Shown here piece after piece: positions 10,604-35,564 of a stretch of DNA of 64,000 nucleotides. Position 1 is the stretch's first letter. Each line of letters begins with the position of its first letter. The stretch covers positions 108,003 through 172,002 of the forward strand of contig CAMDCO010000001.1 in assembly GCA_945890495.1 (NCBI GenBank), given 5' to 3'. Under the pieces are notes generated by a model. The model was given only the letters and a program-made list of their open reading frames with translations, was not told the DNA's origin and ran no database searches. Origin of the DNA: Bordetella parapertussis (lineage in GTDB: Bacteria; Pseudomonadota; Gammaproteobacteria; Burkholderiales; Thiobacillaceae). Both the position numbers and the translations under genes were made by a program.

Positions 10604-10804
10604 TCAATCCTTCTCGCAGTGCCCGCTGGAGGCACAACCACTACCGCTGCCGCCACTGCAGCTGCCGCAGCCCCGCGCATCCGGGTCGCGGAACGGGCCT
10701 AACTGAGGGTTGTGCCGGGCGAAGTTCTGGTACAGACGATTGACCGCCAGGCCCGCCAGTAGAAGGCCTAGGATCAGGCCCACTGCAACAAGATAGGTCA
10801 TCAT
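10604..10804 (-). CDS. Small single-TM, Cys-rich C-terminal protein at the end of the rnf operon
   Basis: MMTYLVAVGLILGLLLAGLAVNRLYQNFARHNPQLGPFRDPDARGCGSCSGGSGSGCASSGHCEKD; overlaps rnfA stop by 4 bp. Confidence 0.75.
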   Translation of the reverse strand: MMTYLVAVGLILGLLLAGLAVNRLYQNFARHNPQLGPFRDPDARGCGSCSGGSGSGCASSGHCEKD

Positions 10805-11391
10805 CCCGCGCTCGCCCCGAGCCCAGCAAAGCCCATAAACACCAAAGACAACAAGCCCGCGAGCATAAGGGCCAGTCCCGTGCCTTGCACCATTTGCGGA
10901 ACCGTTGACAGATTCAGGCGTTCACGCAGGCCGGCCATCAAGAGCAGCGCCAGCGTAAAACCGCCGCCACCGGCCAATGCAAACACCATGGATTGGAGAA
11001 AACTGTATTCGCGCGTCGTCTGGAACAGGGCCACGCCGAGCACGGCACAGTTGGTGGTGATGAGTGGCAGGTAGATACCGAGGGCGCGGAACAACATTGG
11101 ACTGGTCTTTTTCAGGAACATCTCCACCAATTGCACGGCGGAGGCGATCACCACGATATAGGCGATGAGGCGCAAGAACTGCAGATCCAATGCGGTGAGC
11201 AGCACATTCAGGCCGTAGGCACACAGCGAGGCGACCATCATCACGAAGGTCGTCGCGGCCCCCATCGGCAGGGCGGTATTGAGCCGCCCGGAGACGCCCA
11301 GGAAGGGACACAGACCGAGGAACATCGCCAGCACAAAGTTGTTGGTCAGGAGCGTTCCGATGAAGATCTGGAACAGCGATTCATGTTCCAT
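10801..11391 (-). CDS. rnfA: Electron transport complex subunit RnfA
   Basis: MEHESLFQIFIGTLLTNNFVLAMFLGLCPFLGVSGRLNTALPMGAATTFVM. Start moved from the ORF-track Met at 11535 to 11391. Confidence 0.95.
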   Translation of the reverse strand: MEHESLFQIFIGTLLTNNFVLAMFLGLCPFLGVSGRLNTALPMGAATTFVMMVASLCAYGLNVLLTALDLQFLRLIAYIVVIASAVQLVEMFLKKTSPMLFRALGIYLPLITTNCAVLGVALFQTTREYSFLQSMVFALAGGGGFTLALLLMAGLRERLNLSTVPQMVQGTGLALMLAGLLSLVFMGFAGLGASAG

Positions 11392-12010
11392 GACGAACCT
11401 CCTTGCGTTGCTTCCATCCCGCAAACAGGAGCAACCAACCACCGAGGACGAAGAACCCACCCGGCGGCAGGAGCATGACGATCCAGGGTTGGAAACTCGG
11501 TCCGAACAACGACACGCCGAACAGGCTGCCGGCACCCAAGATCTCGCGCACGCTACCCAGGGCGAAAAGACCTATCGTAAAACCGATACCCATACCGAAT
11601 GCGTTAACCACAGCGATCAGGGGCGGGTGTTTGGAGGCATGCGCCTCCGCGCGACCGAGAATGATGCAATTCACCACAATCAACTGAATAAATGCGCCGA
11701 GCGCCTCATACAAGGCCAGGCTCAGGGCCTGGATCGCATAATCGACCACGGTCACAAAGCTGGCGATGATGACGATGTAGGTGGCGATACGCACCTCCTT
11801 CGGCACCCAATTCCGGATTGTTGACACCAACAGACAGGAAGACACCAACACAAAGGTCGTCGCCAACCCCATGCCCAGAGCATTACTCGCCGACACGGTC
11901 ACGGCCAGCGTCGGGCACATACCCAACACCATGACAAAGACGGGGTTCTGTTTCCAGATCCCTTCCATGAAGTTTTCGAAGGCGGTCAGGGTGTGTTCGC
12001 CGGGTTTCAT
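11381..12010 (-). CDS. rnfE: Electron transport complex subunit RnfE
   Basis: ENFMEGIWKQNPVFVMVLGMCPTLAVTVSASNALGMGLATTFVL. Confidence 0.95.
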   Translation of the reverse strand: MKPGEHTLTAFENFMEGIWKQNPVFVMVLGMCPTLAVTVSASNALGMGLATTFVLVSSCLLVSTIRNWVPKEVRIATYIVIIASFVTVVDYAIQALSLALYEALGAFIQLIVVNCIILGRAEAHASKHPPLIAVVNAFGMGIGFTIGLFALGSVREILGAGSLFGVSLFGPSFQPWIVMLLPPGGFFVLGGWLLLFAGWKQRKEVRHGT

Positions 12011-12699
12011 GGCGGGGATTCCAGGTTATTTAGATGCGGACGCAGGCGCGGCAACAAGACACGGGCGCTATCATTGATGCCGCGTCCCACTGCGCGCGAG
12101 GTAATGGTCGCGCCAGAGATCGCGTCGATCTCCCAGGGATTGCGTTTGCTGCCATGTTTCACCGTCCGGATCGGATGAGCAAGGCCCTGACCGGAGGCAT
12201 CCAACCGTGCATCAAGGGCAACAAAGTTTTTCTGGAAGGCCGCGTCCGTGCGGATCTTGTCACCAATGCCCGGCGTCTCGCGATGCGCCCCGACGGCAAA
12301 ACCGATGATCGCCTGCCGCTGCGGGTCATAGGCGTACAGCACCCGCACCACATCGGCATAACCGACCGCACCCGCCTCGGCCACCAAACCACGCAGATGA
12401 CGATGGGCATCGTAGACCGCATAAACGCGCTGGGCCCCCTTGGGCATCGCTTGGCCCAACCGCAACGGGATCGTTCCTTGCGCACTCACAGCATGAATAT
12501 GCAAGGCCACCCCTTCAGGGATGAGGGAGAAGATTGACCGCTCCAAGGCAATACGCCGATTCTTGGCGATCGGGTCCAGCGTGCTTTGAAAGGCCGCAAC
12601 GATTAGCACCCCGCACAACAGAGCGACTCCGCCGAGCGTGGCGACCAAGCGCCAACCGGCCGTCACTTCTGCCACAGGATTCGGCAACGGCTCGCTCAT
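12007..12699 (-). CDS. rnfG: Electron transport complex subunit RnfG
   Basis: Single N-terminal TM; covalent FMN motif region IDAISGATITSRAV. Confidence 0.92.
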   Translation of the reverse strand: MSEPLPNPVAEVTAGWRLVATLGGVALLCGVLIVAAFQSTLDPIAKNRRIALERSIFSLIPEGVALHIHAVSAQGTIPLRLGQAMPKGAQRVYAVYDAHRHLRGLVAEAGAVGYADVVRVLYAYDPQRQAIIGFAVGAHRETPGIGDKIRTDAAFQKNFVALDARLDASGQGLAHPIRTVKHGSKRNPWEIDAISGATITSRAVGRGINDSARVLLPRLRPHLNNLESPP

Positions 12700-13736
12700 G
12701 ACGCCCCCCTCCGTGGCTTGCGCCGCCCGAAGACGCGCGTCGGCAAGCTGCGATCAAGCAAGGGCGCTAGCGCATTACCGAACAGGATGGCATACATCAC
12801 CCCCTCGGACAGGCCGCCAAAATAGCGGATCAGGACCGTCACCGTGCCGATGAGGATCGCGTAGGCCCAGACGGCCAGCGGCGTCACCGGCGAGGTCGCC
12901 ATGTCGGTCGCCATGAACATGGCTCCCAACATGAGGCCACCCGACAGCAGGACGAAGACGGGCGGCGGGAAAAAATCAGGGTTGTAGAGATGAAAAGCGT
13001 AGGCCAAGGCTACGGCAGACCCCATCATGCCCACCGGGATACGCCAGTCGAGCATGCCGCGCAAGGCCAGATAAAGCCCACAAACCAAGACCAACATCGC
13101 CGATGTCTCGCCCACGGAGGCGGTGGCAATACCCAGAAGCAGGTCCTCCGGTGCCGTCAGTTGATGCTGAAACTTCCACATAGCCAACGGCGTTGCGCCG
13201 GTGAACGCATCCGCCGAAGCCGCCTTGGCCCAAACCGTAATATCGGGCGGGATCATCAGGGGTGGTGTCAGGGTCGTGGGGATGAATTCATGGAATCGGT
13301 TCGGGGCATAACTCGGGGCCCAGGTCGCAATCGCCGACGGGAAAGCGGCCTGCACAAAGGCCCTCCCAACGAGGGCCGGGTTGAATACATTCATACCTAG
13401 GCCACCGAACAGGATCTTGCCCAACCCCATCGCCACCACTGCGGCCACGGCCGTCATCCAGAGCGGAAACGAGGGCGGCAGGACCAAGGCCAGCAGGATG
13501 CCGGTGATCATCGCGCTCCAATCCGACAGGGTCGAGGATTGTCCGGAAAGACGGTTAAACAGACGCTCGGTAGCCAGGCACACAATGACCGAGGTTAGCA
13601 GCAGCGCCAATGCGGACAAACCATATAACCAGATTGAAAACAGCGCGATCGGAAGCAAGGCCAGCACTACGTTGAGCATGATGCTCTCAACGCTGAGTCC
13701 CAGGCGTTCATGTGGGGCGCTACGCAGTTCCGTCAT
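12696..13736 (-). CDS. rnfD: Electron transport complex subunit RnfD
   Basis: Polytopic membrane protein; FMN-threonine region FTGATPLAMWK; NVFNPALVGRAFVQAAFP. Confidence 0.94.
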   Translation of the reverse strand: MTELRSAPHERLGLSVESIMLNVVLALLPIALFSIWLYGLSALALLLTSVIVCLATERLFNRLSGQSSTLSDWSAMITGILLALVLPPSFPLWMTAVAAVVAMGLGKILFGGLGMNVFNPALVGRAFVQAAFPSAIATWAPSYAPNRFHEFIPTTLTPPLMIPPDITVWAKAASADAFTGATPLAMWKFQHQLTAPEDLLLGIATASVGETSAMLVLVCGLYLALRGMLDWRIPVGMMGSAVALAYAFHLYNPDFFPPPVFVLLSGGLMLGAMFMATDMATSPVTPLAVWAYAILIGTVTVLIRYFGGLSEGVMYAILFGNALAPLLDRSLPTRVFGRRKPRRGAS

Positions 13737-13742
13737 CGGGTA

Positions 13743-15179
13743 TCAGGCGGCACGCGCACGCAACAAGCCCTTGGCGACGCGAAATTGCTGCACGAGAGGG
13801 ATGCCGGACGGGCAAACCCAAGTACAACAACCGCACTCAAAGCAATCCGCAAGATGGTAGTCGGCGCTCATACTGTCATAGTCCCGTTTCGCGGCCAGCA
13901 TCCCAAGCAGGGCGGGATTGAGCCCCATGGGACAGGCCTGAACACATTCGCCACACTTGATGCAAGGGTACACCTTTGCAACCGTTTCCCGCCTAACCCA
14001 TTCACGGTCATACACCAAAATCCCAGTCACGCCCTTGGTGACGGGGGCGTCCAGCGAAGTAATGGCCTGGCCCATCATGGATCCGCCGAGGACAACCTCC
14101 AACTCGGCGGGAGCCTCACCCTCCAGCGCGCCCAAACATTGCAACACATGACGGATCGGTGTGCCCAACGGCACCCAGAAATTACCCGGTCGCTTGACGG
14201 CCGGGCCGGTCACCGTCACCACCCGCTCGGTCAAGCCCTCGCCCGCCGGTAGCAAACGACCCAGCAAGGTCAGAGTACCCACATTATTGACGACCACACC
14301 GATCTCCGAGGGCAGGCCGCCCGCGGGCACCTCCAGGCCCAGAAGCGACTTGATCAGCATCTTTTCGGCGCCCTGCGGATACTTGGTCTGCACCATCTCA
14401 ATCGTTACCCGCCCATCCGCCGGCAGAAACGGGGTCAGTACCGCCACAGCATCGGGCTTGTTATCCTCAATGCCGATGATGGCGCGCCGGGCCCCCACCG
14501 CGCGCATCGCGTAGCCGATGCCACGCATCAAATCGGCTGGATGTTCGATCATGGTACGGTGATCGCAAGTCAAATACGGCTCGCATTCGCAACCATTAAC
14601 CACCAAGGTATGGATGCGGCGCTCAGGGGGGATGCTCAGCTTGACATGACTAGGGAAGGCCGCGCCGCCCAATCCCACCATCCCGCAGTCTTTGACCGCC
14701 GCAATGATCTCTTCGGGCGCGAGCGCATCCATATCGCGTAGCTCACGCCAGAGCACCTCTTGGGTGGAAGACTCGTAGGCACGGATGATGATGCTTTCCA
14801 CCCACGCTCCTGAGGCTGACGGGTGCAACCGGATCGCCTCAACTCGCCCGGTGACAGGGGAATGCAAGGGAACGGACATGAAACCATCGGCCCGTGCAAT
14901 AGGTTGACCGCGAACCACTTCCTCCCCGGGTCGGACAAGGGGTACTGCCGGCTTGCCGATGTGCTGCGCGAGGGGGAGGGAGATGCGCGGCGCATACGGC
15001 AACCGACGAATCGGCTTGCCGGCAGTACTCTTGTGCGTGTCGGGATGAACCCCGCGCGCGAAACTTTTGCGCCTGAACAGCGAAACAAGATACGAAGAAA
15101 CGAAGAAGGCTCTAGAAGGCCTCTCGTCTTGCGGAGAGGGCAGAGAACAATCTGCCTCAAGCCCCCCACTTCGTTCCAT
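13743..15179 (-). CDS. rnfC: Electron transport complex subunit RnfC
   Basis: GVHPDTHKSTAGKPIRRLP; GMVGLGGAAFPSHVKL; two ferredoxin motifs CIKCGECVQACP and CFECGCCTWVCP. Start uncertain (ORF open to 15242). Confidence 0.93.
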   Translation of the reverse strand: MERSGGLEADCSLPSPQDERPSRAFFVSSYLVSLFRRKSFARGVHPDTHKSTAGKPIRRLPYAPRISLPLAQHIGKPAVPLVRPGEEVVRGQPIARADGFMSVPLHSPVTGRVEAIRLHPSASGAWVESIIIRAYESSTQEVLWRELRDMDALAPEEIIAAVKDCGMVGLGGAAFPSHVKLSIPPERRIHTLVVNGCECEPYLTCDHRTMIEHPADLMRGIGYAMRAVGARRAIIGIEDNKPDAVAVLTPFLPADGRVTIEMVQTKYPQGAEKMLIKSLLGLEVPAGGLPSEIGVVVNNVGTLTLLGRLLPAGEGLTERVVTVTGPAVKRPGNFWVPLGTPIRHVLQCLGALEGEAPAELEVVLGGSMMGQAITSLDAPVTKGVTGILVYDREWVRRETVAKVYPCIKCGECVQACPMGLNPALLGMLAAKRDYDSMSADYHLADCFECGCCTWVCPSGIPLVQQFRVAKGLLRARAA

Positions 15180-15211
15180 GATCGGTCCAGTATCCATGAC
15201 GATGGTATGGC

Positions 15212-18200
15212 TCAGTTGTATTTTGCCGCCCGAGCCATCCATTTCTCGATGCCCGGTTCATTCATGTTCCACGGGGTCCCCGGATGCAGGCAGCCCGAAG
15301 TACATTTCTCTGCGGCCTTGACGATGTCGGGAAACTTCGCACCCTGTGGGTTCACCACAATGGCCAGTTTCTGGTCGTTATAGGCAAACACCTTGGGCGC
15401 GATCGTGGTGCACTCGTCACAGGCCGCGCAATCGGGCGTATCGATATAGACCGGCTCATAACCCTCGGCGACTGCCAAGGGATTGGCCTGCGAAGGCCCG
15501 GTAGATGCGGATGGCGCAGCCCCCATGCCCAACCCAGTCAGGCTGGCCGTCAGATGCGCGAGGATCTCCGCCCGCGCTTTTTCAACGATCGCCGCCTCAT
15601 CGCCCAGCGCCACAGCGGATTTGGCCACATCTTTAAGTTGATGCCAGAACGCCAAGCGCTCCTCACACGCGTTGACCAAGGCCTGCGAAACCATAACCCG
15701 CATCAGCCGGTTCTTTTTGTCCACCGCCCAGATGAACGGGAAACGGCCCTCGCGCTCGGCCGCAGGCAAGCGGAGAAAGTCTGCCATCAGCACCATGTCA
15801 TCGTTCCAGGTCTCCGGCGGAGCCTTCTTGAACTGCTTGGCAAAGCGGCCTTCCGTCAGGGCGAAGTCGGCAAAGGTCATCGGCAAGGCCATCTTCTGCT
15901 TCTGTCCCGCTTCATCGACATAAGCCAGCGTATATTCAGGCCAATCGGTCTCCGGTGAAGGATTGCCATCAAGGCTGACGCACTCGCTAAAGGTCGTCCC
16001 CTGATCGGGGTCGTAACGGAACAGCGAGTAAGCGCGTGACTCGACCGCCAACCGCGACTGCTCGACGGAACGGTCATCGCCCACGCCATGTTCGGGCGGA
16101 CACACAGCGTAGATGTTGAACAGGGCCGGGCGGCGCGAATTGAGGCCATCGATATAGCTCTCGATGAGGTGCGTCGGGTGGGCGATGGTGCTCTGCGCCA
16201 CATAGGCCGAGCGGTGCGCCATACCAATGAGCGCGATCTCCTTGCGGATCTCTTTTTTGCCCGCTGCGTGTTTTCCAAAGGGTGTCATATCCGCCACCTG
16301 GGCCACAAAGGTAGAGCTTGCCGCCTGACCGCCGGTATTTGAATACACCTGGGTATCGACGACCAGAATCTTGATCGGCTTGCCCGTCATCAAGGCACGC
16401 GACAGGTTCTGGAAACCGATGTCGTACATCGCCCCATCGCCGCCAATCGCCACAACCGGCGGACACAGTTTCCACTCTTCGTCCGTAAAGGTTTCCCAGT
16501 TGTAATAGGTGAGTTCGGCATCCTCTGTGTGCGGATCGTAACCACGCTCGAGTTCAATCTCAGCCATGCGGATGGCCTTGAACCCGTCCGCCATGCGCGT
16601 CATATGCCCTTCGAACAGCCCGAGAGCGACCGAGGGCGAATCCTGGAACAGGTGTGAGGTCCATGGGAACGGATAGGGATTAAAGGGGAAAGTCGACCCC
16701 CACACCGAGGTGCACCCCGTCGAATTGACGATACCCATGGCGGCGCGCCCCCGTCCCGTCGGACCCTCCAGATAGCGCCACTTGAGGTCTCTGAGGCGTT
16801 CCAAGATCTGGGTCACCCAGCGTAACCACGGCTGATCGATCGGCGGCGCGGCATGGTGGGCGTCCAAGTCTTCGGACAGGTTCGCCAGGGTCAGGTCATC
16901 GCCCTGATGCGCCGCAAGGGACTGCAGGACCGCCTGCGTATCGGTCAGGTTTACCGCCTCGGTCAAGCGCATGCGGATATGTTTTTCCAGCCCGACGATC
17001 AGGGTGTCAATTTTTTCCAGATGGGCCTCTACGCGCGGCTGCATCAGGGCTGTCACCGTGCTGGTAAAAAGGTGGATGGCGGTCTTCTCGCCACAGCCCA
17101 GACAGGCCCCATCGCCGCAAGCCATAGCGTTGTAGTTCTGCTTGGTCAGCAGCAGGGTTTCCAGTGCACCAATCTTCTCGTCGAGGTCGTCGATGCGGCT
17201 ATAGGATTTAGGGGTCGTGGGCAGGTCAAGCCAGAACTGCCAGTCGCGGCGCAATGCATCGATGCTGTCCTGGGTCTGGGTCACCATTTTCAGGGCATCG
17301 TCATCGCAGACATCCACGCAAAGGGCGCAGCCCTTGCAGGTATAGGGATTAACGGTAATAGAGAACAACCCACCAGCCCCCTTCGCCTTCTTCTCAGGAT
17401 TGACCCAGTAGGGCTTGGTGGTCGCGAGCTGGAACTCGCCCAGGGCATCGGTTAGCAAACGGTACTCATCCCGCAAGGGCTCCGCATCGGCACCTGCCGT
17501 GGCCAGAGCCTCCTCTACCGTCGCCTCGAGGGCGACCTTCAGGCGAGCACGCACATCCACTCCATCACGATCAAGCACACCGCGCAGGCGTTTCTCGATC
17601 GCCCGGGCGCCCTTGCGCAGGAAGCGGGTCGGGCGGCCGCCCATCTCAATACGGCCGATCGCACTATTCAGGACATCACCAACCGTCGAGACCAGACCCG
17701 GAATTGCCGAGTCCGGGCACTGGGTGTAACAGTTCCCACAGGCCGTGCAGTTCTCGGCGATCCACACCGGGTGCTCGAAACGGATCTGCGTCATATCGCG
17801 GAACACGCCCGTCACGGCCGGGATCAGGGCCATCCCCATAAAGGGATCGGCTAGGCTGTCCGAGCCGCGCCCCGTCATGTAGAAACTACCGGTCTGTTCC
17901 CAAAACCGGTGTATATCGGCCTGCTTCGAACCGGCCTCTGCCGAGGTTTCAGGCTGCTGGGTCAGCATAATGGGCAAGGCGGCCCGGGCCCGAAGCGGGG
18001 TCGCTTGGCGGGCACCCACCTGCATGGCCTCGGCAGGGATTTCATGGATCTCGGTATAGCCGCGCCGTACGACCCGCAGGTTGTCTTCGACGATACGCTG
18101 GCCCTTCTTGCCGAATTTTGCCTGCAACTGGTTTTCGATGGCCGAGAACAGGGTCTCTTCCGACAAACCGGCCCGTTCCTTGATATCGGAGGCGTGGAAG

Positions 18201-20182
18201 AAGGCGCCCTGGAAGGCATTGCCCTGCATACGCAACTGCAGGTCAGGGTTAGAGGACTCCTCGCGCGCAATCGTGAATGCATCCAGATAAAAAACGCGAA
18301 TGCCCTGTTCGACGATGTATTTCTGGATAGGCACCGGGAAGGTCGCCCACAAGGCCCCAGCATCCGGCAGGTTGCTCTGGATGATAAAGACGCCGCCCTG
18401 GCTCAACCCGGCAACCGCATTGGTGTGCAGAAAGACCTGCGGATCCGGCGACAGCACCACATCGACATGGCTGTATTCACAGTTGATACGAATCGGATCC
18501 GGTGCCGCCGACAGATAATAGGTGGTCGGCTGACCCTTCTTTTCGGAACCGTATTTCGGATTAGCCTTGATGTCCCAACCCAGAAGTTCGAACAGGGTCA
18601 TGGCGAGGTTCTTGCCGGTCGTCACCGCGCCCCAGCCACCGACCGAATGCATCCGCACCGCAATCCCACCCTTGGGCATCAGATTGGGGTTTTCGGAGCC
18701 GCGCAGGGCCAAGTCCCGGATCTGCGGGTAGGCCTCCAGCAGACCCTGCTGGCGGAGTTCCTGCTTGGGATTGGCCGCCTGATCGCGCACAAAGTCGATT
18801 GATAGATAGAAGAATCGCCGCTGAGCGCCGACGCTCCCGCCCTTGCCGCCTTCCAGCATATTCTCGACGGCGGCAATCAGCGCCTCGGGCTGCAGATCGC
18901 GCGATCCGATGCCATAGCTGCCGGAATAAAGCTGCGGAATTTCCACGCCGGAATGAAACGCCGCATAGCCCGCGTGCTGCCCCCCCCGCGTACGGCCAGC
19001 CACCCCATTCTCGACACACTTCGAGACCACGGAGCGCACCTCGCGCATCAGCGGCAGATCCTCAGACAGCGGTTGGTCGGTTCGCTCCAGGACCGCCACG
19101 CCCTTCTTTCCCTTCAGAATATGACCCAACAATTCGCCTGGAAAAGGACGGAACATGGTCAGATTGACGACACCGACCCGGATCTGTCGCGTCTCGCGCA
19201 GGTAATCGGCTACCGCACCGGCCTGCACGGTCATGCTGCCCTGACCTAGGATCAAGTAGTCCGCATCTTCACAGCGATACCCCGCCACACGAGCGTATCG
19301 ACGACCGGTCAGTTCGGCATACTCTTCCGTACAGCGGTCGAACAAGGCCGGTATATGTTGGAAAAAGTACGGCCGTTGCGCTGCCACCGCCTGCATATGT
19401 GCATCTTGGTTGGCCACAGCGCCCGAGGCCAATGGTGCGTCGACATCCCACAGGGCCGGGATACGGCGGCGCTTGGGCCCGTAGAGGATCACCTGCGCGG
19501 GTGTCGGTGTGTCAATCAGATCACCGGGCTGACCCAGGAACTCCGCGACCAGTTCACGCTCCGGAACCTGCACCGGTTCAATCAAGTGGGTGGTTAGGAA
19601 TCCGTCCATGCCCATGATCGCCGGGGTCAGGGACAATTCCGCCGTCTTGCGCGCGATCAGATTGAGGTCGGCCGCCTCTTGGGCACTGGCCGCCATCACC
19701 TGGATGAAACCCGTGTCATCGACGCTGTGATAGTCGTCGTGAGCGCAATGCACATTAAGCGTGGCCTTGGTGATGGCGCGACAGCCCATGTTGAGCACAT
19801 AGGGCAAACGCTTGCCCACCGCTCCGTAAAGCGATTCGTGCATGAACACCGCACCCTGAGACGAGGTGAAGTTAACCGCACGCAAACCGGTCATGGCCAT
19901 GCCGGCGGTCACTCCGGCGGCAGCGTGTTCGGATTCGGGCTCAACAAAGATCAGCGGTCGGCCGGAGATATTGATATGGCCTGCCGCCACCGACTCGGAC
20001 CAGTACTCGCCCATGTTGGTGGATGGGGTAATAGGGTAGGCGCCGGCCGCATCAGAAGCCTCGCGCTCCACTAAGATGACCGCCGTATTACCGTCGATCG
20101 CATCGCGCACACCGGGATATTTCACCGGCGAGGAGGTCGACTCATTCGATTGGGACGCAAACAGGTTCTTGAACATGAGCAC
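15212..20182 (-). CDS. nifJ: Pyruvate:ferredoxin (flavodoxin) oxidoreductase, unusually long with C-terminal Fe-S extension
   Basis: YPITPSTNMGEYWSE; CTACGNCYTQCP and CKGCALCVDVCDDDA clusters; ACGDGACLGCGEK; TPP motif GGDGAMYDIGFQN; VYSNTGGQ; extra C-terminal CAACDECTTIAPKVFAYND...CTSGCLHPGTPWN. Confidence 0.95.
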   Translation of the reverse strand: MLMFKNLFASQSNESTSSPVKYPGVRDAIDGNTAVILVEREASDAAGAYPITPSTNMGEYWSESVAAGHINISGRPLIFVEPESEHAAAGVTAGMAMTGLRAVNFTSSQGAVFMHESLYGAVGKRLPYVLNMGCRAITKATLNVHCAHDDYHSVDDTGFIQVMAASAQEAADLNLIARKTAELSLTPAIMGMDGFLTTHLIEPVQVPERELVAEFLGQPGDLIDTPTPAQVILYGPKRRRIPALWDVDAPLASGAVANQDAHMQAVAAQRPYFFQHIPALFDRCTEEYAELTGRRYARVAGYRCEDADYLILGQGSMTVQAGAVADYLRETRQIRVGVVNLTMFRPFPGELLGHILKGKKGVAVLERTDQPLSEDLPLMREVRSVVSKCVENGVAGRTRGGQHAGYAAFHSGVEIPQLYSGSYGIGSRDLQPEALIAAVENMLEGGKGGSVGAQRRFFYLSIDFVRDQAANPKQELRQQGLLEAYPQIRDLALRGSENPNLMPKGGIAVRMHSVGGWGAVTTGKNLAMTLFELLGWDIKANPKYGSEKKGQPTTYYLSAAPDPIRINCEYSHVDVVLSPDPQVFLHTNAVAGLSQGGVFIIQSNLPDAGALWATFPVPIQKYIVEQGIRVFYLDAFTIAREESSNPDLQLRMQGNAFQGAFFHASDIKERAGLSEETLFSAIENQLQAKFGKKGQRIVEDNLRVVRRGYTEIHEIPAEAMQVGARQATPLRARAALPIMLTQQPETSAEAGSKQADIHRFWEQTGSFYMTGRGSDSLADPFMGMALIPAVTGVFRDMTQIRFEHPVWIAENCTACGNCYTQCPDSAIPGLVSTVGDVLNSAIGRIEMGGRPTRFLRKGARAIEKRLRGVLDRDGVDVRARLKVALEATVEEALATAGADAEPLRDEYRLLTDALGEFQLATTKPYWVNPEKKAKGAGGLFSITVNPYTCKGCALCVDVCDDDALKMVTQTQDSIDALRRDWQFWLDLPTTPKSYSRIDDLDEKIGALETLLLTKQNYNAMACGDGACLGCGEKTAIHLFTSTVTALMQPRVEAHLEKIDTLIVGLEKHIRMRLTEAVNLTDTQAVLQSLAAHQGDDLTLANLSEDLDAHHAAPPIDQPWLRWVTQILERLRDLKWRYLEGPTGRGRAAMGIVNSTGCTSVWGSTFPFNPYPFPWTSHLFQDSPSVALGLFEGHMTRMADGFKAIRMAEIELERGYDPHTEDAELTYYNWETFTDEEWKLCPPVVAIGGDGAMYDIGFQNLSRALMTGKPIKILVVDTQVYSNTGGQAASSTFVAQVADMTPFGKHAAGKKEIRKEIALIGMAHRSAYVAQSTIAHPTHLIESYIDGLNSRRPALFNIYAVCPPEHGVGDDRSVEQSRLAVESRAYSLFRYDPDQGTTFSECVSLDGNPSPETDWPEYTLAYVDEAGQKQKMALPMTFADFALTEGRFAKQFKKAPPETWNDDMVLMADFLRLPAAEREGRFPFIWAVDKKNRLMRVMVSQALVNACEERLAFWHQLKDVAKSAVALGDEAAIVEKARAEILAHLTASLTGLGMGAAPSASTGPSQANPLAVAEGYEPVYIDTPDCAACDECTTIAPKVFAYNDQKLAIVVNPQGAKFPDIVKAAEKCTSGCLHPGTPWNMNEPGIEKWMARAAKYN

Positions 20183-20196
20183 TCTCCGTCTCTAAG

Positions 20197-21075
20197 CTAG
20201 GCCGCCAGCGGCAAGGGCGTTATGCGCACAATCTTCTTGGCCGCCTGACCGCGGGTTGCCTGACCCTCCGTCAACCAGACGATCGCACCTGTTGGGCAAC
20301 GCTCGATGGACTTGAGGCTGGCCAAATCATTGCGGGTGTAGTCGATCACGGCCAGATTTCGGTCCATGTGCATGAGACCTGACGGGGAATCCGCCACACA
20401 TTTCCCACAAGCGTTACAGGCCACGGAACACTGGGCCTCGGCGATATCACCTTCGGCATGACTCTTGCACGCCACCCATAACTGGTGGCTGATCGGCTGC
20501 AGGGAAAACAAGGTTTTGGGGCAGACTTCCACGCAGTCACCGCACGCCGTACAAAGCCCCGTATCAACAACAGGCAATCCAAAACCATTCATATGAATGG
20601 CAGCAAACTCGCACACCGTCTCACAGTCGCCAAGACCAAGGCAGCCCCAAGCACAGTCTTTTCCCCCACCGCTCACCGTGGCTGCCGCACGACAATGCCT
20701 CAAACCTTCATAACGCGCCCGCATGCGGGCCACATGGTGACCGCCGGCGCAAGCCAGCCGCGCCACCTGTTTTTCCACTTCGCCCATCGCAACACCCAGC
20801 ATCCCGGCGATATAGGCATTCATCTCGGGCGGATTAACCGAGCACTTTGCCGGCACGATGTCGCCGGAAACGACCTGTTCGGCAAAGTTACGACACCCCG
20901 CCGTCCCACAAGCCCCGCAGTTGGAGTGGGGCAGACAATCCTCGACCGCATCGATGCGTGCGTCCTCAAACACCTGCATGCGACGGCTAGCGATAGACAG
21001 AAACCCAGCCAAAACACCCCCAAGGGTCGCCATGAAGGCCCCGGCCAGGATGATGCCCGTCCAAGTCTCGCTCAC
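20197..21075 (-). CDS. rnfB: RnfB-like electron transport complex subunit with atypical Fe-S motifs
   Basis: N-terminal TM, CGACGTAGCRNFAEQVVSG, CAWGCLGLGDCETVCEF, CTACGDCVEVCP, CNACGKCVADSP. Confidence 0.9.
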   Translation of the reverse strand: MSETWTGIILAGAFMATLGGVLAGFLSIASRRMQVFEDARIDAVEDCLPHSNCGACGTAGCRNFAEQVVSGDIVPAKCSVNPPEMNAYIAGMLGVAMGEVEKQVARLACAGGHHVARMRARYEGLRHCRAAATVSGGGKDCAWGCLGLGDCETVCEFAAIHMNGFGLPVVDTGLCTACGDCVEVCPKTLFSLQPISHQLWVACKSHAEGDIAEAQCSVACNACGKCVADSPSGLMHMDRNLAVIDYTRNDLASLKSIERCPTGAIVWLTEGQATRGQAAKKIVRITPLPLAA

Positions 21076-21253
21076 TCACCGCTCCTTGTGCCATTAAAAA
21101 TTTATAACCCGATAACAAAGTCTATATATTTTCAAATGCATCGACTAACAAATATTTCAATCCAGAGTATTAAAGAACTGAATTATTATTCGGCGGACCC
21201 CATAAGCGAGAATATATGCCGTGCCCAAGCCAGAATTCCCCCAAGAGGCCCCC

Positions 21254-22294
21254 ATGTACTATAAGAACAATCGCATCAAGCAATTGCGCGCCTTTCAGAA
21301 CGTCGTAAAGGCTGGAAATATTTCGCGCGCGGCCGAGCGACTGTGTCTCAGTCAGCCCGCCGTCTCACTACAAATACAGGCCCTTGAGCGCGAGATGGGC
21401 ATCGTTCTGTTCGAACGCCGTGGCCCGAATCTACGCCTGACCCCGGAGGGGGAGGCCCTGTACCACCTCGCGGAACCGCTGGTGGAGGGTGTCGACAAGC
21501 TGCAGGAAAACTTTGCCGCCCTGTTTGGCAATGTGAATTCTGGCGACCTCAATATTGGGGCCGGCGAATCAACCATTCTCTATGTCCTGCCGGAACCGGT
21601 CCGCTGCTTTGTTAGTCAGCACCCGGGCGTACGCCTCAAGCTGAACAATGTAACCGGGCGCGACGGCATGAAAATGCTGCGCGCCAATGAAATCGATCTT
21701 GCGGTCGGCTCCATGCTGGAGGTTCCCGAGGATCTCGAATATCGCCCCTTTGCGACCTTTGATCCCGTGCTCATTACCCCGCAGGATCACCCCTTGGCCC
21801 AACTGGCGAGCACGCGCGAAATCACCCTGGAAGACATCAGCGCCTACGGTCTCATCCTGCCGCCGGCCCATCTATCCACCTGGCGTATCGTCAAGTATGT
21901 ATTCCAGCAACACAATCTGACCTTTACGGTCACGCTTGAGGCCGGCGGGTGGGAGGTCATCAAAAAGTATGTTGAATTGGGGATGGGGATTTCCATCGTC
22001 ACCGATATCTGCCTCGGCGGTACCGAGCGGTTGGCGCGCATCCCACTTGTACGCTACTTCCCGCAACGCAGTTACGGGTTAGTACTGCGTCGCGGCGGGG
22101 TCCTGTCACCCCAGGCGCGGCGTTTTATCGAAGTCCTGGAGGATGTGTACCAGACCCGGCCACCCCTGCCACAGACGCAGACGGTTACCGCAATGGGAAT
22201 AGCCGCGTCTACACCGAAGCCTGGACGACGATCACGCAAAGGGCCAACAGACCCTGCGGCAACAAGCCCAGACCCAGCACGGCCAGACCGTTGA
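21254..22294 (+). CDS. LysR-family transcriptional regulator
   Basis: RIKQLRAFQNVVKAGNISRAAERLCLSQPAVSLQIQALEREMGIVLFERRG HTH; divergent from rnfB. Confidence 0.94.
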   Translation: MYYKNNRIKQLRAFQNVVKAGNISRAAERLCLSQPAVSLQIQALEREMGIVLFERRGPNLRLTPEGEALYHLAEPLVEGVDKLQENFAALFGNVNSGDLNIGAGESTILYVLPEPVRCFVSQHPGVRLKLNNVTGRDGMKMLRANEIDLAVGSMLEVPEDLEYRPFATFDPVLITPQDHPLAQLASTREITLEDISAYGLILPPAHLSTWRIVKYVFQQHNLTFTVTLEAGGWEVIKKYVELGMGISIVTDICLGGTERLARIPLVRYFPQRSYGLVLRRGGVLSPQARRFIEVLEDVYQTRPPLPQTQTVTAMGIAASTPKPGRRSRKGPTDPAATSPDPARPDR

Positions 22295-23645
22295 AGCTGA
22301 GCAGGCCGATGGCCTCTCCGGCCGGGGCAATCTGGCCAGGCCCTTCGCTGGGGGCATCAAAGTACATCAGCTTGACGATGCGCAAGTAGTAGAAGGCGCC
22401 GATCAACGAGAACATGACGGCCACCACGGCCAGCGTAATCCAGCCGCCACCCACCAAGGCCTGAAGCACGAAGAACTTGGCATAGAAACCCAGGAAGGGC
22501 GGCAGGCCCGCCATCGAGAGCATCACTACGGCCATCATCGCCGCCAGCCAGGGATGATCACGGTTCAGGCCACGGAAGGCATCCAGCGTATCGGCCTCTG
22601 CATCCTTGCGCGACAGATGCACGATCAGTCCAAATCCGGCCAGGGTCATGATCAAATAGGAGATCACATAGAACATGCTGGCGGCGAAACCAGCGATGCT
22701 GGCCGCCAACACGCCCAAGAGGAGGAACCCCATATGGGAGATGGTTGAATAGGCCAGCATGCGCTTGATATTGGTCTGCATGATCGCCGCCAGGTTACCA
22801 ATGGCCAGACTGGCCACCGCCATGACCGCCAGCATCGACTGCCAGTCGTGAAGTAACTCGGGCAAGCCCAGAACCAGCATGCGCATGACAATGGCGAAGG
22901 CCGCCAACTTGGGCGCGGAGGCCAGGAACAGGGTTACCACCGTCGGTGCGCCTTGGTAGATGTCAGGCACCCACATGTGGAACGGGGCCACGCCGAGTTT
23001 GAAACCAATGCCCGCCACGATAAATACGAGGGCAAAGGTCAACAACATCGTATTGCCCGACTGACCATGCAGGGCCTCGGCGATGCCGGATAGCTCCAGA
23101 GTGCCGGTCGCGCCGTAAAGCAGCGACATGCCATAGAGAAGCAGGCCCGAGGCCAGCGCACCGAGGATGAAATATTTCATCGCCGCCTCGGAGGACTGCG
23201 CGGAATCCCGCTGCATGGCTACCAGGGTGTAGAGGGACAAGGACAACAACTCCAAGCCCAGATAGAGCGTCAACAGGCTGGCAGAGGAAATCATGACCAT
23301 CATGCCCAGCACGGCAAACAAGGCCAGGGCAAAATACTCACCCCGCAACAAGCCGAATTCGCGTAAGTACGCACGGCCATACACGAACGAGGCCATGGCC
23401 GCGAGGTAGGTCACCAATTTCAGCACATCGCCCATCGGGTCGATGACCACCAACCCGCCCACCAGGGCATCGGTCCCTAGGCCGCCCGTGAGAACGGTCA
23501 GCACCGCCGCACCCAAAAGGGTCAGCAGGGACGGGACATAGCCCGCCGTCGGACACTTGTCCGCCGCCGTCAGCAGCAAGATGACGCTGGCCATGACCAG
23601 CACGAGGATCTCGGGAACGATGGGCAGAAAATCAATCAGCGTCAT
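22209..23645 (-). CDS. nuoN: NADH-quinone oxidoreductase subunit N
   Basis: Proton-translocating membrane domain protein; last gene of nuoA-N order. Confidence 0.95.
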   Translation of the reverse strand: MTLIDFLPIVPEILVLVMASVILLLTAADKCPTAGYVPSLLTLLGAAVLTVLTGGLGTDALVGGLVVIDPMGDVLKLVTYLAAMASFVYGRAYLREFGLLRGEYFALALFAVLGMMVMISSASLLTLYLGLELLSLSLYTLVAMQRDSAQSSEAAMKYFILGALASGLLLYGMSLLYGATGTLELSGIAEALHGQSGNTMLLTFALVFIVAGIGFKLGVAPFHMWVPDIYQGAPTVVTLFLASAPKLAAFAIVMRMLVLGLPELLHDWQSMLAVMAVASLAIGNLAAIMQTNIKRMLAYSTISHMGFLLLGVLAASIAGFAASMFYVISYLIMTLAGFGLIVHLSRKDAEADTLDAFRGLNRDHPWLAAMMAVVMLSMAGLPPFLGFYAKFFVLQALVGGGWITLAVVAVMFSLIGAFYYLRIVKLMYFDAPSEGPGQIAPAGEAIGLLSFNGLAVLGLGLLPQGLLALCVIVVQASV

Positions 23646-23653
23646 GGCAGCTT

Positions 23654-25168
23654 TCAGTGCGCAACGAGGGGCACCAACTTGCTATGGGCCACATGCTCGA
23701 GAAGATTATTAACCGAGACATGCATCACCTCGGTCACCGGGAAGGGGTAAATACCCATGGCCAAGACACACACCGCCAGTATGGAAAGGATCAGGAACTC
23801 GCGTGAGTCGATGTCCGTCATACTCGCGACCTCAGGCCGGGTAATAGGGCCAAAGACGACCCGCTTGTACATCCACAGCGAATACGCCGCACCGAAGATC
23901 AGGGTGGTTCCGGCCAGCGCCGCGTACCAGAAGTTCACTTGGATGGCGCCCAAAATAACCATGAACTCGCCCACGAAACCCGAGGTCGCCGGCAGGCCGG
24001 AATTGGCCATGGCAAACAGCATGAACAAGGCCGCAAACTTGGGCATGGAAGTCGCCACGCCGCCATAATCGGAGATCTGCCGCGAATGCAGGCGGTCATA
24101 CATCACGCCAATACAGAGGAACAAGGCACCCGAGACGAAGCCGTGCGAGATCATCTGCACCAGACCGCCTTCGACCCCCCAACTGTTGAACATGAAGAAA
24201 CCTAGGGTCACAAAACCCATGTGGGCAATCGACGAATAGGCGATCAGCTTCTTCATGTCCGATTGCACCAGGGCCACCAGACCGATGTAAACCACCGCAA
24301 TCAGCGACAGGCCGATGATGAGCCAGGAAAGTTCATGCGAGGCATCGGGCAGGATGGGCAGGGTAAAACGCAGGAAACCGTAGGCACCCACCTTCAGCGT
24401 GATCGCGGCCAACACCACCGAACCGCCGGTCGGTGCCTCCACATGGGCGTCCGGCAACCAGGTATGCACCGGCCACATCGGCACCTTGACCGCAAAGGCG
24501 AAGAAGAAGGCCACAAACAGCAACATCTGCGCACTCATGGCGAGCGGCACCTTGTGCCAGACCAAGATATCGAAACTGCCCCCCGAGGCGAAGAACAGGT
24601 AGAGCATCGCCACCAGCATCAGCAGCGAACCCAACAGCGTGTAGAGGAAGAACTTGATCGCCGCATAGACGCGGTTGGGGCCACCCCAGATACCGATGAT
24701 CAGGTACAGCGGGATCAGCATCGCCTCGAAGAAGACATAAAACAGCACGCCGTCGAGCGACGCAAACACACCGTTGATCAGGCCCGACTGGATCAGGAAG
24801 GCCGCCATGTATTGCGCCACCTTGGTCTTGATCACCACCCAACCCGCCTGCACGACCAACAGGGTCACGAAGCTGTTGAGGACCACGAAGGGCATGGAAA
24901 TGCCATCCACACCCAAGGCGTAATGCACATTGAAGAGGGGGATCCAATTGGCGTGTTCCACAAACTGCATGGCCGCTGTGGAAATATCAAAACCCGTCCA
25001 CAAGGGCAGGGAGACGATAAAGCCCAGCGCCGCGCCCAACAGGGCTAAGGTCCGCTGACCCTCCACGCCGCCGCTGGCGCCATCCTTACCACCCACGGCA
25101 AGGACAAGGAGGCCGGCCACAATGGGCACCCAAATAGTCAGGCTGAGGATTCCGATGCTTTCAAACAT
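23654..25168 (-). CDS. nuoM: NADH-quinone oxidoreductase subunit M
   Basis: YALGVDGISMPFVVL; FEAMLIPLYLIIGIWGG; VHTWLPDAHVEAPTGGSVVLA. Confidence 0.97.
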   Translation of the reverse strand: MFESIGILSLTIWVPIVAGLLVLAVGGKDGASGGVEGQRTLALLGAALGFIVSLPLWTGFDISTAAMQFVEHANWIPLFNVHYALGVDGISMPFVVLNSFVTLLVVQAGWVVIKTKVAQYMAAFLIQSGLINGVFASLDGVLFYVFFEAMLIPLYLIIGIWGGPNRVYAAIKFFLYTLLGSLLMLVAMLYLFFASGGSFDILVWHKVPLAMSAQMLLFVAFFFAFAVKVPMWPVHTWLPDAHVEAPTGGSVVLAAITLKVGAYGFLRFTLPILPDASHELSWLIIGLSLIAVVYIGLVALVQSDMKKLIAYSSIAHMGFVTLGFFMFNSWGVEGGLVQMISHGFVSGALFLCIGVMYDRLHSRQISDYGGVATSMPKFAALFMLFAMANSGLPATSGFVGEFMVILGAIQVNFWYAALAGTTLIFGAAYSLWMYKRVVFGPITRPEVASMTDIDSREFLILSILAVCVLAMGIYPFPVTEVMHVSVNNLLEHVAHSKLVPLVAH

Positions 25169-25210
25169 GTGCTGTTATCCGGTTAGGTCGTCGCTTAATT
25201 TTGTCGCGGC

Positions 25211-27208
25211 TCAAAAGTGTACGAACAAGGTCGCAAGCAAAGCCACGCCGACGATCATGGCAAAGGCATAGTGGTAGAGGTAGCCAGACTGGATCTGGCG
25301 AGTACGCGCCGCCACCCAACCCACCATGCGTGCAGAGCCGTTCACTACCCAGCCATCAATGACAGCGGCATCACCCCAACGCCAGAGGCGGCTCCCCACT
25401 AGACGAGCACCGCCCGCGAAGAACCAGTCGTTGAAACGATCGAAGCCGTATTTCTCTTCGAGGATGGTATAGATAAAACCGGCCCGATTACGGATCGCCT
25501 GCGGCAGGTCTGGGCGCACCAGATACAGATAGTAGGCCGTTCCGACACCCGCCACCGCCAGCCAGAATGGCAGCGTAGTCAGTGCGTGGATAGCCATCGC
25601 CATCGCCCCGTGGAACCCGTGAGTCAACTCCTTCATGGCCGGATGCAGTGCCGTATTGACATGGATGGCATGGCCAAACCAGTCGCCTGCCACCAGCGGG
25701 CCTATCGTCAGGTAACCGATCACGACCGATGGGATGGCCAGCAAGATTAGCGGCAGGGTGACCACCCACGGCGTCTCGTGCGGCGCATGATGGTGGCCGT
25801 GCGAATCGCCTCCTTCGTCGTGGCCGTGCTGGGCGTGGGCGTTGTGGAAACGCTCCTTGCCGTGGAAGACCATGAAATACATCCGGAAGGAATAGAAGGC
25901 CGTCACGAATACGCCCGCCGCCACCGCGAAATAGGCGAAACTGGAACCGGCCAGGTGCGAGGCGTGCACCGCCTCGATGATCGAGTCCTTGGAATAAAAG
26001 CCCGACAGGAAGGGCGTGCCAATCAAGGCCAACGAACCGATCAACGAGGTGATCCAGGTGATCGGAAGGTATTTGCGCAGGCCGCCCATTTTGCGGATGT
26101 CTTGCTCATGATGCATGGCCATGATGACCGAACCCGCCGCCAGGAACAGTAAGGCCTTGAAGAAGGCATGCGTCATCAGGTGGAAGATCGCCACCGAGTA
26201 GGCCGAGGCACCCAAGGCAACGGTCATATAACCCAACTGCGACAGGGTCGAATAGGCGATGACCCGCTTGATGTCGTTCTGGATCACGCCGAGGAAGCCC
26301 ATGAACAAGGCCGTAATGGCACCGATCACCATGACGAAGGACAGGGCCGTATCCGACAACTCAAACAACGGCGACATACGCGCCACCATGAAGATGCCGG
26401 CCGTCACCATGGTCGCGGCATGGATCAGGGCCGAGATCGGGGTCGGGCCTTCCATTGAGTCCGGCAGCCAAACATGGAGCGGGAACTGGGCTGATTTACC
26501 CATGGCACCAATGAACAGCAGGATGCAGATCACCGTCAGGACCGACCAGCTATGGCCAGGCCAGATCGTCATCATGTGGCCCTGCATGCCCATGGCGTTG
26601 TTAAACACCTGCTGATAATCCAGCGTACCGAAGTAGGCCAGCACCAAACCGATGCCCAGCAGGAAGCCAAAGTCGCCGACGCGGTTAACCAGGAAGGCCT
26701 TGAGGTTGGCGTAGATGGCCGTCTCGCGGGTGTACCAGAAGCCAATCAGGAGATAGGACACCAGGCCCACGGCCTCCCAGCCGAAGAACAACTGCAGGAA
26801 GTTGTTGGCCATCACCAACATCAACATGGAGAAGGTGAACAAGCTGATGTAACTAAAGAAGCGTTGGTAACCCGGGTCCTCGGCCATGTAGCCAACGGTG
26901 TAGATGTGCACCATTAACGACACAAAGGTCACCACCAGCATCATCAGCACGGTCAGACGGTCGATCAGGAAACCGATCTCCAGCCGCACATCGCCACTGG
27001 CCAGCCAGGTATAGACCGAGCCGTTGTAGGTATTGCCGGCTAACACATCCTGAAAGATCACCAGGGAACCCAAGAAGGCAATGGCCACACCGAGGATAGT
27101 GACCGTGTGCGCGCCGCGCCGTCCAATGGCTTTTCCGAACAGGCCCGCGACGATTGCGCCAACCAAAGGCGCCATGGGGACGAGCAGATAAAGGGTCTTC
27201 ATATCCAT
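25211..27208 (-). CDS. nuoL: NADH-quinone oxidoreductase subunit L
   Basis: FGWEAVGLVSYLLIGFWYTR; LHVWLPDSMEGPTPISALIHAATMVTAGIFM. Confidence 0.97.
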   Translation of the reverse strand: MDMKTLYLLVPMAPLVGAIVAGLFGKAIGRRGAHTVTILGVAIAFLGSLVIFQDVLAGNTYNGSVYTWLASGDVRLEIGFLIDRLTVLMMLVVTFVSLMVHIYTVGYMAEDPGYQRFFSYISLFTFSMLMLVMANNFLQLFFGWEAVGLVSYLLIGFWYTRETAIYANLKAFLVNRVGDFGFLLGIGLVLAYFGTLDYQQVFNNAMGMQGHMMTIWPGHSWSVLTVICILLFIGAMGKSAQFPLHVWLPDSMEGPTPISALIHAATMVTAGIFMVARMSPLFELSDTALSFVMVIGAITALFMGFLGVIQNDIKRVIAYSTLSQLGYMTVALGASAYSVAIFHLMTHAFFKALLFLAAGSVIMAMHHEQDIRKMGGLRKYLPITWITSLIGSLALIGTPFLSGFYSKDSIIEAVHASHLAGSSFAYFAVAAGVFVTAFYSFRMYFMVFHGKERFHNAHAQHGHDEGGDSHGHHHAPHETPWVVTLPLILLAIPSVVIGYLTIGPLVAGDWFGHAIHVNTALHPAMKELTHGFHGAMAMAIHALTTLPFWLAVAGVGTAYYLYLVRPDLPQAIRNRAGFIYTILEEKYGFDRFNDWFFAGGARLVGSRLWRWGDAAVIDGWVVNGSARMVGWVAARTRQIQSGYLYHYAFAMIVGVALLATLFVHF

Positions 27209-27212
27209 GACA

Positions 27213-27518
27213 TCAACCCTTCAAAGATCCAAGGTCATCGACATGGATGCTGCGCAGATTACGGAACAGTAACACCAGGATCGCCAAGCCAATGGCGGAC
27301 TCGGCGGCCGCCACCGTCAGGATGAAGAACACGAACACCTGCCCGGAAAGGTCGTTCAGATAATGCGAGAAGGCGACGAAGTTCATGTTGACCGCCAACA
27401 GCATCAGCTCGATGGTCATCAGGATGACCACGAGGTTTTTGCGGTTGAGAAACAGGCCCATGATGCTGATCGCAAAGAGCAGGGAACCCAAGATCAGATA
27501 GTGGTTTACGGTAATCAT
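27213..27518 (-). CDS. nuoK: NADH-quinone oxidoreductase subunit K
   Basis: [44 protein letters not shown]; start corrected from 27620. Confidence 0.97.
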
Positions 27519-28132
27519 TCCTCGTCCTCCACGGGCGCACCGGGTTTCTGCGGTTTCAAGTTCACCATGCGCAGACGGTCGGCCTTCTTCACCACCACCT
27601 GGGTCGCCGGATCGCGCCACTTGAGGCCGGGGCGGCGACGCAAGGTCAACACAATGGCCGCCACAATGGCCACCAACAAGATCACCGCGGCAAGTTCAAA
27701 CGCGTAGGCATATTCGGTATACAGGACGCGGCCCAGGGCCTTCGTATTGCTGTAGTCGGCCGGTTTGGGTTCAGGCATCTTCAAGCCGAAGTTTTGCCCA
27801 CCCAGGACGATATACATCTCCAGTGCCATCAAGCCCGAGATCAATCCGGCCAGCGGCAGGTATTTGCGGAAATCAGCGCGCATCGTCTCGATATTGATGT
27901 CGAGCATCATGACCACGAAGAGGAACAACACCATGACCGCGCCGACATAGACCAACACCAGGGTAATGGCGAGGAACTCGGCCTCCAGCAAGACCCAGAG
28001 TCCGGCGGCCGTAAAGAAGGCCAAGACCAAGAACAAGGCGGCATGGACCGGATGACGCACGGTCACCACACGCAACCCGGCTAGAAGCAGGATGGCTGAA
28101 AGGAAGTAAAAGACAACGCTGGTAAATTCCAT
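27515..28132 (-). CDS. nuoJ: NADH-quinone oxidoreductase subunit J
   Basis: [51 protein letters not shown]. Confidence 0.96.
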
Positions 28133-28144
28133 CGTATTTATCCG

Positions 28145-28636
28145 TTAGCGATATTTGGCGTCTGCCGCCTTGTTGCGGGCAATCTCCGCCTCGTACTGAT
28201 CTCCCACCGCCAGCAACATGTCCTTGGTGTAATAGAGATCACCGCGCTTCTCACCGTGATAGGCAAAGATATGGGTCTCGACAATCGCATCGACCGGACA
28301 GGCCTCTTCGCAATAACCACAGAAGATGCACTTGGTCAGGTCGATGTCATAGCGCGTGGTGCGGCGCGAGCCGTCCTCGCGCTGCGCCGATTCAATCGTA
28401 ATGGCCAGGGCCGGGCAGGCCGTCTCGCACAGCTTGCAGGCGATACAACGCTCCTCGCCATTGGCATAACGACGCTGCGCATGCAGACCCCGGAAGCGCG
28501 GCGACATCGGCGTATGTTGCTCCGGATACATGATCGTGATCTTGCGCTCGAACAGATGCCGGCCCGTCACCGCCATCCCTTTCAGCAACTCCACGAGCAG
28601 GAAGGTCTTGAAGAACTGTTGAATCCACTTGAACAT
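28145..28636 (-). CDS. nuoI: NADH-quinone oxidoreductase subunit I
   Basis: [39 protein letters not shown]; start corrected to MFKWIQQ. Confidence 0.97.
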
Positions 28637-28662
28637 CGTGTGTCGTCCTTGTCCTTGGCGGT

Positions 28663-29682
28663 TCAATGGAAGAATCGGCCGAGTGAGGTCTGCATCGCGG
28701 CAGCCATCACCAGAAGCCAGACCAGGGTCACCGGGATCAGCACCTTCCAACCCAGACGCATGATCTGGTCATAGCGATAACGCGGGAAGGTGGCGCGAAA
28801 CCAGAGGAACAGGAACAGGATGAAGCTGGTCTTGGCCAGCAGCCAGACGAGGCTATCGGGCAGGAAGGGAACCGGTGACAGCCAGCCGCCCAAGAACATC
28901 AGCGCCGTCATCGCCGAGACCAGGATCATGTTGGCATATTCAGCCAAGAAGAACACCGCGAAGGCCATGCCCGAGTAGTCGACATGGAAACCGGCCACGA
29001 TCTCAGACTCGCCCTCGGCCACATCGAAGGGCGAGCGGTTGGTCTCGGCCAAGATGGCAATCAGATAGACCATGAACATCGGGAACAGCGGAAGGAAATA
29101 CCAGTGCCAGAAGCCGCCCGCTTGCGCGCGGACGATATCGCCCAGATTCAGGCTCTGCGCCGCCATCAGCACGCCCACTAAGGCGAAGCCCATGGCGATC
29201 TCGTAGGACACAATCTGCGCCGCCGAACGCATGGCACCCAGGAAGGCGTATTTCGAGTTGGAGGCCCAACCCGCCAAGATCACGCCGTACACGCCCATCG
29301 AGGTAATCGCCATCACATAGAGCAGGCTGGCATCGAGATCGGCCAAAACCAGCGTATCGCCGAACGGGATCACCGCCCAAGCGGCTAAGGCGGGGGCCAG
29401 CGCCAGCACCGGGGCGAGGAGGAACACCCCCTTGCTAGCCCCGGTCGGAATAATAATTTCCTTGAACATCAGCTTCAGGGCATCGGCGATCGGTTGCAAC
29501 CAGCCTTTTGGGCCGACCCGGTTGGGGCCGATCCGAACCTGCATGTAACCAATAATCTTGCGCTCGGCATAGGTCAGGTAGGCCACACCGATCAACAACG
29601 GCAAAACGATGGCCATGATCTTGACCAAGGTCCAGATCGGCAGCCAGGCCGGTCCCAGGAGGTTTTGAATCTGATCCATCAT
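28663..29682 (-). CDS. nuoH: NADH-quinone oxidoreductase subunit H
   Basis: [33 protein letters not shown]; start corrected to MMDQIQN. Confidence 0.97.
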
Positions 29683-31922: not shown

Positions 31923-31923
31923 C

Positions 31924-35550: not shown

Positions 35551-35564
35551 GAGAGTTCGTCCGA

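Follow-up and report, generated by a model that had tools for sequence, protein, structure and literature searches.

A long PFOR subfamily with a predicted ferredoxin tail is encoded together with an apparently dedicated Rnf complex

The long PFOR gene and the surrounding Rnf operon

The window, i.e. the whole stretch of 64,000 nucleotides that was analysed, carries on its minus strand an operon in which the gene of a long PFOR-like enzyme lies between rnfB and the remaining rnf genes. A divergent regulator gene precedes the operon.

21221..22294, plus strand: LysR-type regulator, divergent from the operon and its candidate regulator
20197..21075, minus strand: RnfB-like subunit (292 aa, of which 21 are Cys), encoded at the head of the operon; FeS domain and Fer4, NCBIfam RnfB models matched below cut-off
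15212..20182, minus strand: long PFOR-like 2-oxoacid:ferredoxin oxidoreductase of 1656 aa (codons); POR_N, PFOR_II, POR, Fer4 and TPP_enzyme_C domains
13743..15242, minus strand: RnfC (true start probably near 15090); TIGR01945 488 bits, cut-off 246
12696..13736, minus strand: RnfD; TIGR01946 279 bits, cut-off 207
12007..12699, minus strand: RnfG (divergent); TIGR01947 84 bits, cut-off 102
11381..12010, minus strand: RnfE; TIGR01948 231 bits, cut-off 213
10801..11535, minus strand: RnfA (true start inside the ORF, at about residue 50); TIGR01943 241 bits, cut-off 229

All six Rnf subunits are encoded together in the window. RnfA, RnfC, RnfD and RnfE score above their curated cut-offs, and RnfB and RnfG are matched but stay below theirs, which marks the linked Rnf as a divergent subtype. 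In 25 related loci a homologue of the LysR-type regulator (at least 57% identity) is likewise encoded divergently to the operon at this position. Just upstream of rnfB-PFOR, with the divergent LysR gene in between, an apparent complex I (nuo) operon was recognized by eye on the minus strand of the window (22209-36041).

The preliminary description of this DNA had pointed to a giant PFOR of 1656 aa, and the open reading frame indeed occupies exactly the interval given above, with all PFOR domains and the quoted motifs present. The listed start is GTG at 20182; ATG at 20176, two codons inside and following GGAGA, is the likelier one. The POR_N, PFOR_II, POR and TPP domains are found by Pfam in the order typical of PFOR, each above the Pfam cut-off. 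The best sequence matches in PDB are the PFORs of Moorella and Desulfovibrio and, separately, ferredoxin I of Desulfovibrio africanus. The score with the NifJ equivalog TIGR02176 (NCBIfam) is 397 bits, which is below the curated cut-off of 911 and therefore places the protein in the PFOR superfamily but outside the NifJ equivalog. In the alignment of long PFORs (92 rows, with the window counted twice) the 12 Cys of the three usual PFOR [4Fe-4S] clusters are invariant, and so are the TPP/substrate-site residues T52, R135, G1250 and N1282. Judging from these conserved residues only, pyruvate is the putative substrate, although the low TIGR02176 score counts against assuming it.

Homodimeric PFORs of the NifJ type (D. 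africanus, 1b0p; Moorella thermoacetica, 6cin) and the long PFOR have in common the domain order, the three-cluster Cys, the TPP site and the substrate-site residues. The long PFOR differs from them in its distant sequence, two helical insertions, an enlarged post-TPP segment and a tethered ferredoxin. A chance or reading-frame artefact is ruled out, as the architecture is kept in about 90 full-length homologues.

Helical insertions and the C-terminal ferredoxin

Four parts of the long PFOR gene deserve separate description.

17378..17680, minus strand: insertion 1 (residues 835-935), helical, separating the two 4-Cys motifs within the dicluster ferredoxin domain
16733..17065, minus strand: insertion 2 (residues 1040-1150), helical, between CLGCGEK and NSTGC
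15461..15595, minus strand: Ala/Gly-rich flexible linker (residues 1530-1574), recognized by composition, variability and low pLDDT
15215..15451, minus strand: C-terminal monocluster ferredoxin (residues 1578-1656), predicted ligands C1585, C1588, C1591 and C1627

The insertions were compared with canonical PFORs of the same order and with the split PFORs of the Magnetococcia type. The stretch of insertion 1 comprises 101 residues in the long PFOR versus 19 in three canonical PFORs and about 39 in the split ones, the insertion adding about 80 residues; in the model it forms four helices (pLDDT ~80-92). It was absent from the preliminary description, which had noticed an extra helical stretch of about 110 aa after CLGCGEK. 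The latter is borne out as insertion 2, which has 111 residues where the split PFORs have 13 and three canonical PFORs of the same order have 9 (two more such PFORs align loosely). Mean conservation of insertion 2 is 0.65 and in the model it contains one helix of 47 residues. The same comparison shows an enlarged segment at 1417-1530, in a post-TPP region that is present in ordinary PFORs too. Of the post-TPP extension of about 250 aa proposed earlier, only the linker and the ferredoxin (~1530-1656) are wholly extra, while residues 1396-1525 belong to this enlarged segment.

The model of residues 500-1656 has a mean pLDDT of 77, with both insertions helical. Its matches are PFOR structures, at a best E of 1e-26, yet the global TM-score is low (~0.4), so that the domain arrangement and the position of the tail are not readable from it. 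We suggest with caution that the two insertions would probably serve as a docking surface for the ferredoxin tail or for Rnf.

Likeness of the C-terminus to a monocluster ferredoxin had been proposed before, and both the domain search and the structure prediction agree with it. Pfam Fer4_13 matches residues 1580-1633 with 27.6 bits in the whole protein and 33.7 bits in the fragment (cut-off 24.5), and it matches 70 of 70 homologous tails. When the profile of these 70 tails is compared with solved structures, D. africanus ferredoxin I is the top match (1e-11). AlphaFold, given an alignment from which two rows of plasmid records were left out, gives pLDDT >90 over the ferredoxin, and Foldseek with this predicted structure finds 1fxr first (rmsd 1.4 Å, TM 0.80 by target). 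C1585, C1588 and C1591 are kept in 92/92 aligned rows and C1627 in 91/92, the other row ending at a contig end; C1631 is kept in only 73/92. The four conserved Cys imply one [4Fe-4S] cluster in the tail. A dicluster domain is ruled out, since only four Cys are conserved and their spacing is that of a single cluster. The alignment thus shows that each long PFOR chain keeps conserved ligands for four predicted [4Fe-4S] clusters.

D. africanus ferredoxin I (1fxr/1dax), also a monocluster ferredoxin, is the closest solved structure to the tail both by sequence and by fold. It is free in Desulfovibrio, where it is a redox partner of D. africanus PFOR, whereas in the long PFOR the ferredoxin is a covalent tail. 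The residues A/P/G/S/T make up 57% of the linker, and its pLDDT is <50 in the predicted models. The stretch 1540-1574 varies from 27 to 95 aa across the family of long PFORs, with a mean conservation of 0.41 versus 0.74 for the ferredoxin. A variable, Ala/Gly-rich linker is what is expected of a tether.

Distribution of the long PFOR and its linkage to rnf genes

A scan of species-level genomes confirmed at least 500 relatives, of which the best 80 were kept. The long PFOR thus occurs in 80 or more such genomes, mostly Proteobacteria with other phyla as well. Carriers among the best 80 include Thiobacillus, Gallionellaceae, Rhodocyclaceae, Sulfuritalea, Rhodoferax, Rubrivivax, Rhodoblastus, Chromatiaceae, Ectothiorhodospira, Sedimenticola and Thiodiazotropha, together with MAGs labelled Opitutales, Kiritimatiellae and Acidobacteria. 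The long PFOR is also found in plasmid records of Persicobacter (Bacteroidota) and Gemmatirosa (Gemmatimonadota). Such a spread suggests that the whole operon may have moved between phyla; single MAGs could be contamination. The full-length form at ≥70% identity was found in 3 of 399 genomes sampled from the window's phylum (the window's own included), and the long PFOR can therefore be described as widespread but patchy.

All 82 loci that were compared have at least one rnf gene next to the long PFOR; where the flanks are long enough, rnfB-PFOR-rnfCDGEA is the order with few exceptions. In two loci (L021 and L062) rnfB is downstream instead, and in one (L099) rnfB was not found in the stretch examined around the long PFOR. 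About ten short contigs show rnfB alone or rnfC alone because the contig ends. In a tree that combines linked RnfC with ordinary RnfC from the same genomes and from related ones, the linked proteins split from the ordinary ones with a support of 100/100, two of the linked rows being long-branched. Judged by this phylogeny, the linked Rnf appears to form a dedicated subtype. Of the 25 genomes in the window's family, 14 have the long PFOR and all 14 have the linked rnfC beside it, mostly besides another Rnf. A long-frame match of 1720 codons in genome G021 was rejected as an ordinary PFOR with spurious upstream read-through.

The nearest short relatives found are in Magnetococcia-type genomes of the same phylum (L118, L119, L121 and L122), where the PFOR is split into two adjacent genes. 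They are ~37-44% identical to the long PFOR over the two best-matching core segments, and they have a shorter insertion 1, no insertion 2, no ferredoxin tail and no adjoining rnf operon. One Magnetococcia-type genus encodes a divergent PFOR of 1684 aa (L116:6574-11607) with both insertions and a CxxCxxC...C tail, which is not recognised as ferredoxin by Pfam. In the genomes of this genus rnfC lies elsewhere, not beside the PFOR gene. In the core tree the L116 protein stands next to the Rnf-linked class, but the support is weak (80/78). Given this place in the tree and a tail with no rnf gene beside it, the tail may predate the linkage to Rnf, and in these bacteria it may serve another acceptor.

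Proposed function of the PFOR-Rnf module

We consider it fairly probable, on the grounds of sequence and gene order, that the long PFOR with its tethered ferredoxin works as one unit with the dedicated Rnf in reversible, ion-coupled pyruvate oxidation and synthesis. During oxidation, electrons from pyruvate would pass via TPP to the three PFOR clusters and further to the tethered ferredoxin, which would swing to RnfB and deliver them there. Rnf would then hand the electrons to NAD+ while pumping H+ or Na+. Running backwards, the module would use the ion gradient to drive electrons of NADH onto the tethered ferredoxin, and pyruvate would be made from acetyl-CoA and CO2. Such a module would be equivalent to a reversible, ion-coupled pyruvate dehydrogenase, and its low-potential electrons would not have to enter the common pool of ferredoxin. 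The transfer of electrons via the tail to RnfB, the pumping of ions and the direction are what we infer from the data above.

The preliminary description had already suggested that the fused ferredoxin channels electrons to RnfB or RnfC. Rnf as the partner is well supported by inference from the rnf synteny, the dedicated Rnf subtype, the likeness of the tail to D. africanus ferredoxin I and the long, variable Ala/Gly-rich linker; as to the receiver, RnfB, being the subunit that accepts ferredoxin, is likelier than RnfC. According to Vitt and colleagues, a ferredoxin-like domain that belongs to a larger complex could bind to RnfB (PMC9588780). Ferredoxin flexibly linked to its partner and channelling electrons is also known from engineered ferredoxin-hydrogenase fusions, in which electron flux was raised and the hydrogen yield, given an optimal linker, rose as much as fourfold (PMC2847965). 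Those fusions are synthetic and the partner is hydrogenase, whereas the long PFOR is natural and the partner is PFOR itself. The L116 protein, having both insertions and the tail with no rnf gene adjoining, counts against the PFOR-Rnf unit. Going further, we tentatively raise the idea of a physical PFOR-Rnf supercomplex, in which the swinging tail, like the lipoyl arm of pyruvate dehydrogenase, would pass electrons directly with no free ferredoxin, making it a reversible ion-motive pyruvate dehydrogenase/synthase present in several phyla.

Other genes near the operon fit the reading as a PFOR-Rnf module, namely those of an FNR-like reductase, PEP synthase and ApbE. In 18 loci (e.g. L083:19708-20565) the operon is followed by the gene of the FNR-like reductase, a relative of PetH/BoxA, and inspection showed it also in Persicobacter (L021:22130-22987); this reductase may link the module to NADPH. 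ApbE is encoded near the operon in 6 loci. In 8 loci (L028, L029, L030, L031, L035, L064, L075 and L094) rnfA is directly followed by the PEP synthase gene in the same orientation; these loci span Gallionellaceae, Thiodiazotropha, a Lamellibrachia symbiont, Thiotrichaceae and others.

Linked PEP synthase favours pyruvate synthesis. It is possible, although we would not call it probable, that the biosynthetic direction dominates, i.e. that Rnf spends the ion gradient on reducing the tethered ferredoxin, with the enzyme acting chiefly as pyruvate synthase in acetate assimilation and anaplerosis. In agreement with this, the window's own genome (81% complete) has aceE, the gene of PDH E1, which would take care of oxidation, as well as acetyl-CoA synthetase and RuBisCO, and many carriers are phototrophs or lithoautotrophs. 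However, PEP synthase was not found in this genome or in its genus. PPDK, which is able to run either way and is encoded in the window's own genome, co-occurs with the long PFOR instead: in the window's family (G000-G024) it is present in 13 of 14 carriers versus 1 of 11 non-carriers (Fisher p = 3e-5, with kinship and genome completeness ignored, as in the aceE and nifH comparisons below).

The PPDK co-occurrence is compatible with dominance of the oxidative direction, where the module would be an ion-pumping counterpart of PDH under oxygen limitation, for example during glycogen breakdown. So is published low-O2 expression. In Endoriftia, the Riftia symbiont, several PFOR isoforms and RNF are listed with their direction unknown, and one PFOR isoform, not identified as Rnf-linked, rises together with ppdk and a glycogen gene under O2 limitation (PMC11636981). 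Nevertheless, the operon-linked PEP synthase points the opposite way, and most carriers in the window's family have aceE (12/14 versus 3/11 non-carriers). Mainly oxidative use is possible but looks rather unlikely to us.

Tail function can also be thought of with no hand-over to Rnf at all, the ferredoxin being an extra relay within the dimer or an oxygen shield for a cluster. Occurrence of a tail apart from rnf genes in L116 speaks for this, and oxygen tolerance of D. africanus PFOR is linked to its C-terminal extension. Yet the tail of the long PFOR comprises an entire ferredoxin fold and is attached by a long variable linker, in contrast to a fixed protective arm, and the rnf synteny is steady in close homologues. 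We regard this explanation as improbable, and we found no evidence for the shielding of the low-potential cluster from oxygen that the preliminary description had considered. Rnf and NifJ supply electrons to nitrogenase in some diazotrophs, but such a role of the operon is most unlikely: a search of the window's own incomplete genome gave no nifH, and in the family this gene does not co-occur with the long PFOR (3/14 carriers versus 3/11 non-carriers), on which grounds a nitrogen-fixation link was rejected.

Relation to previously described systems

Clustering of PFOR with Rnf has been noted once before. In the rnf2 cluster of the Solemya velum symbiont the PFOR gene is located between rnfB2 and rnfC2, as in the window, and pyruvate has been proposed as the electron donor (Dmytrenko 2014, PMC4287430). 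The passages on it treat the PFOR as ordinary and have no description of the insertions, the ferredoxin tail, the subfamily or its distribution. The long PFOR architecture is common and its operon was on record, but neither a demonstration of its role nor a description of the fusion was found in the open-access literature searched. In the same literature neither a natural ferredoxin tail nor insertions on PFOR are described, and the search for ferredoxin-PFOR fusions found only engineered hydrogenase fusions. What was known before is the rnfB-PFOR-rnfC order; what is new here is a PFOR subfamily with a built-in ferredoxin tied to a dedicated Rnf.

If the reading as a PFOR-Rnf unit is true and the tail feeds Rnf, part of the energy of pyruvate oxidation would be kept as an ion gradient, or a gradient would be spent on fixing CO2 into pyruvate, and competing reactions would have no access to the low-potential electrons. 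Among the carriers are purple bacteria, marine animals' sulfur-oxidizing symbionts and further lithoautotrophs, and the cultivated ones, e.g. Rubrivivax gelatinosus, Thiocapsa and Allochromatium, make the module testable. Just upstream of the rnfB-PFOR operon of Gemmatirosa lie two genes for a 2-oxoacid:ferredoxin oxidoreductase that looks korAB-like by eye (L022:7140-10015).
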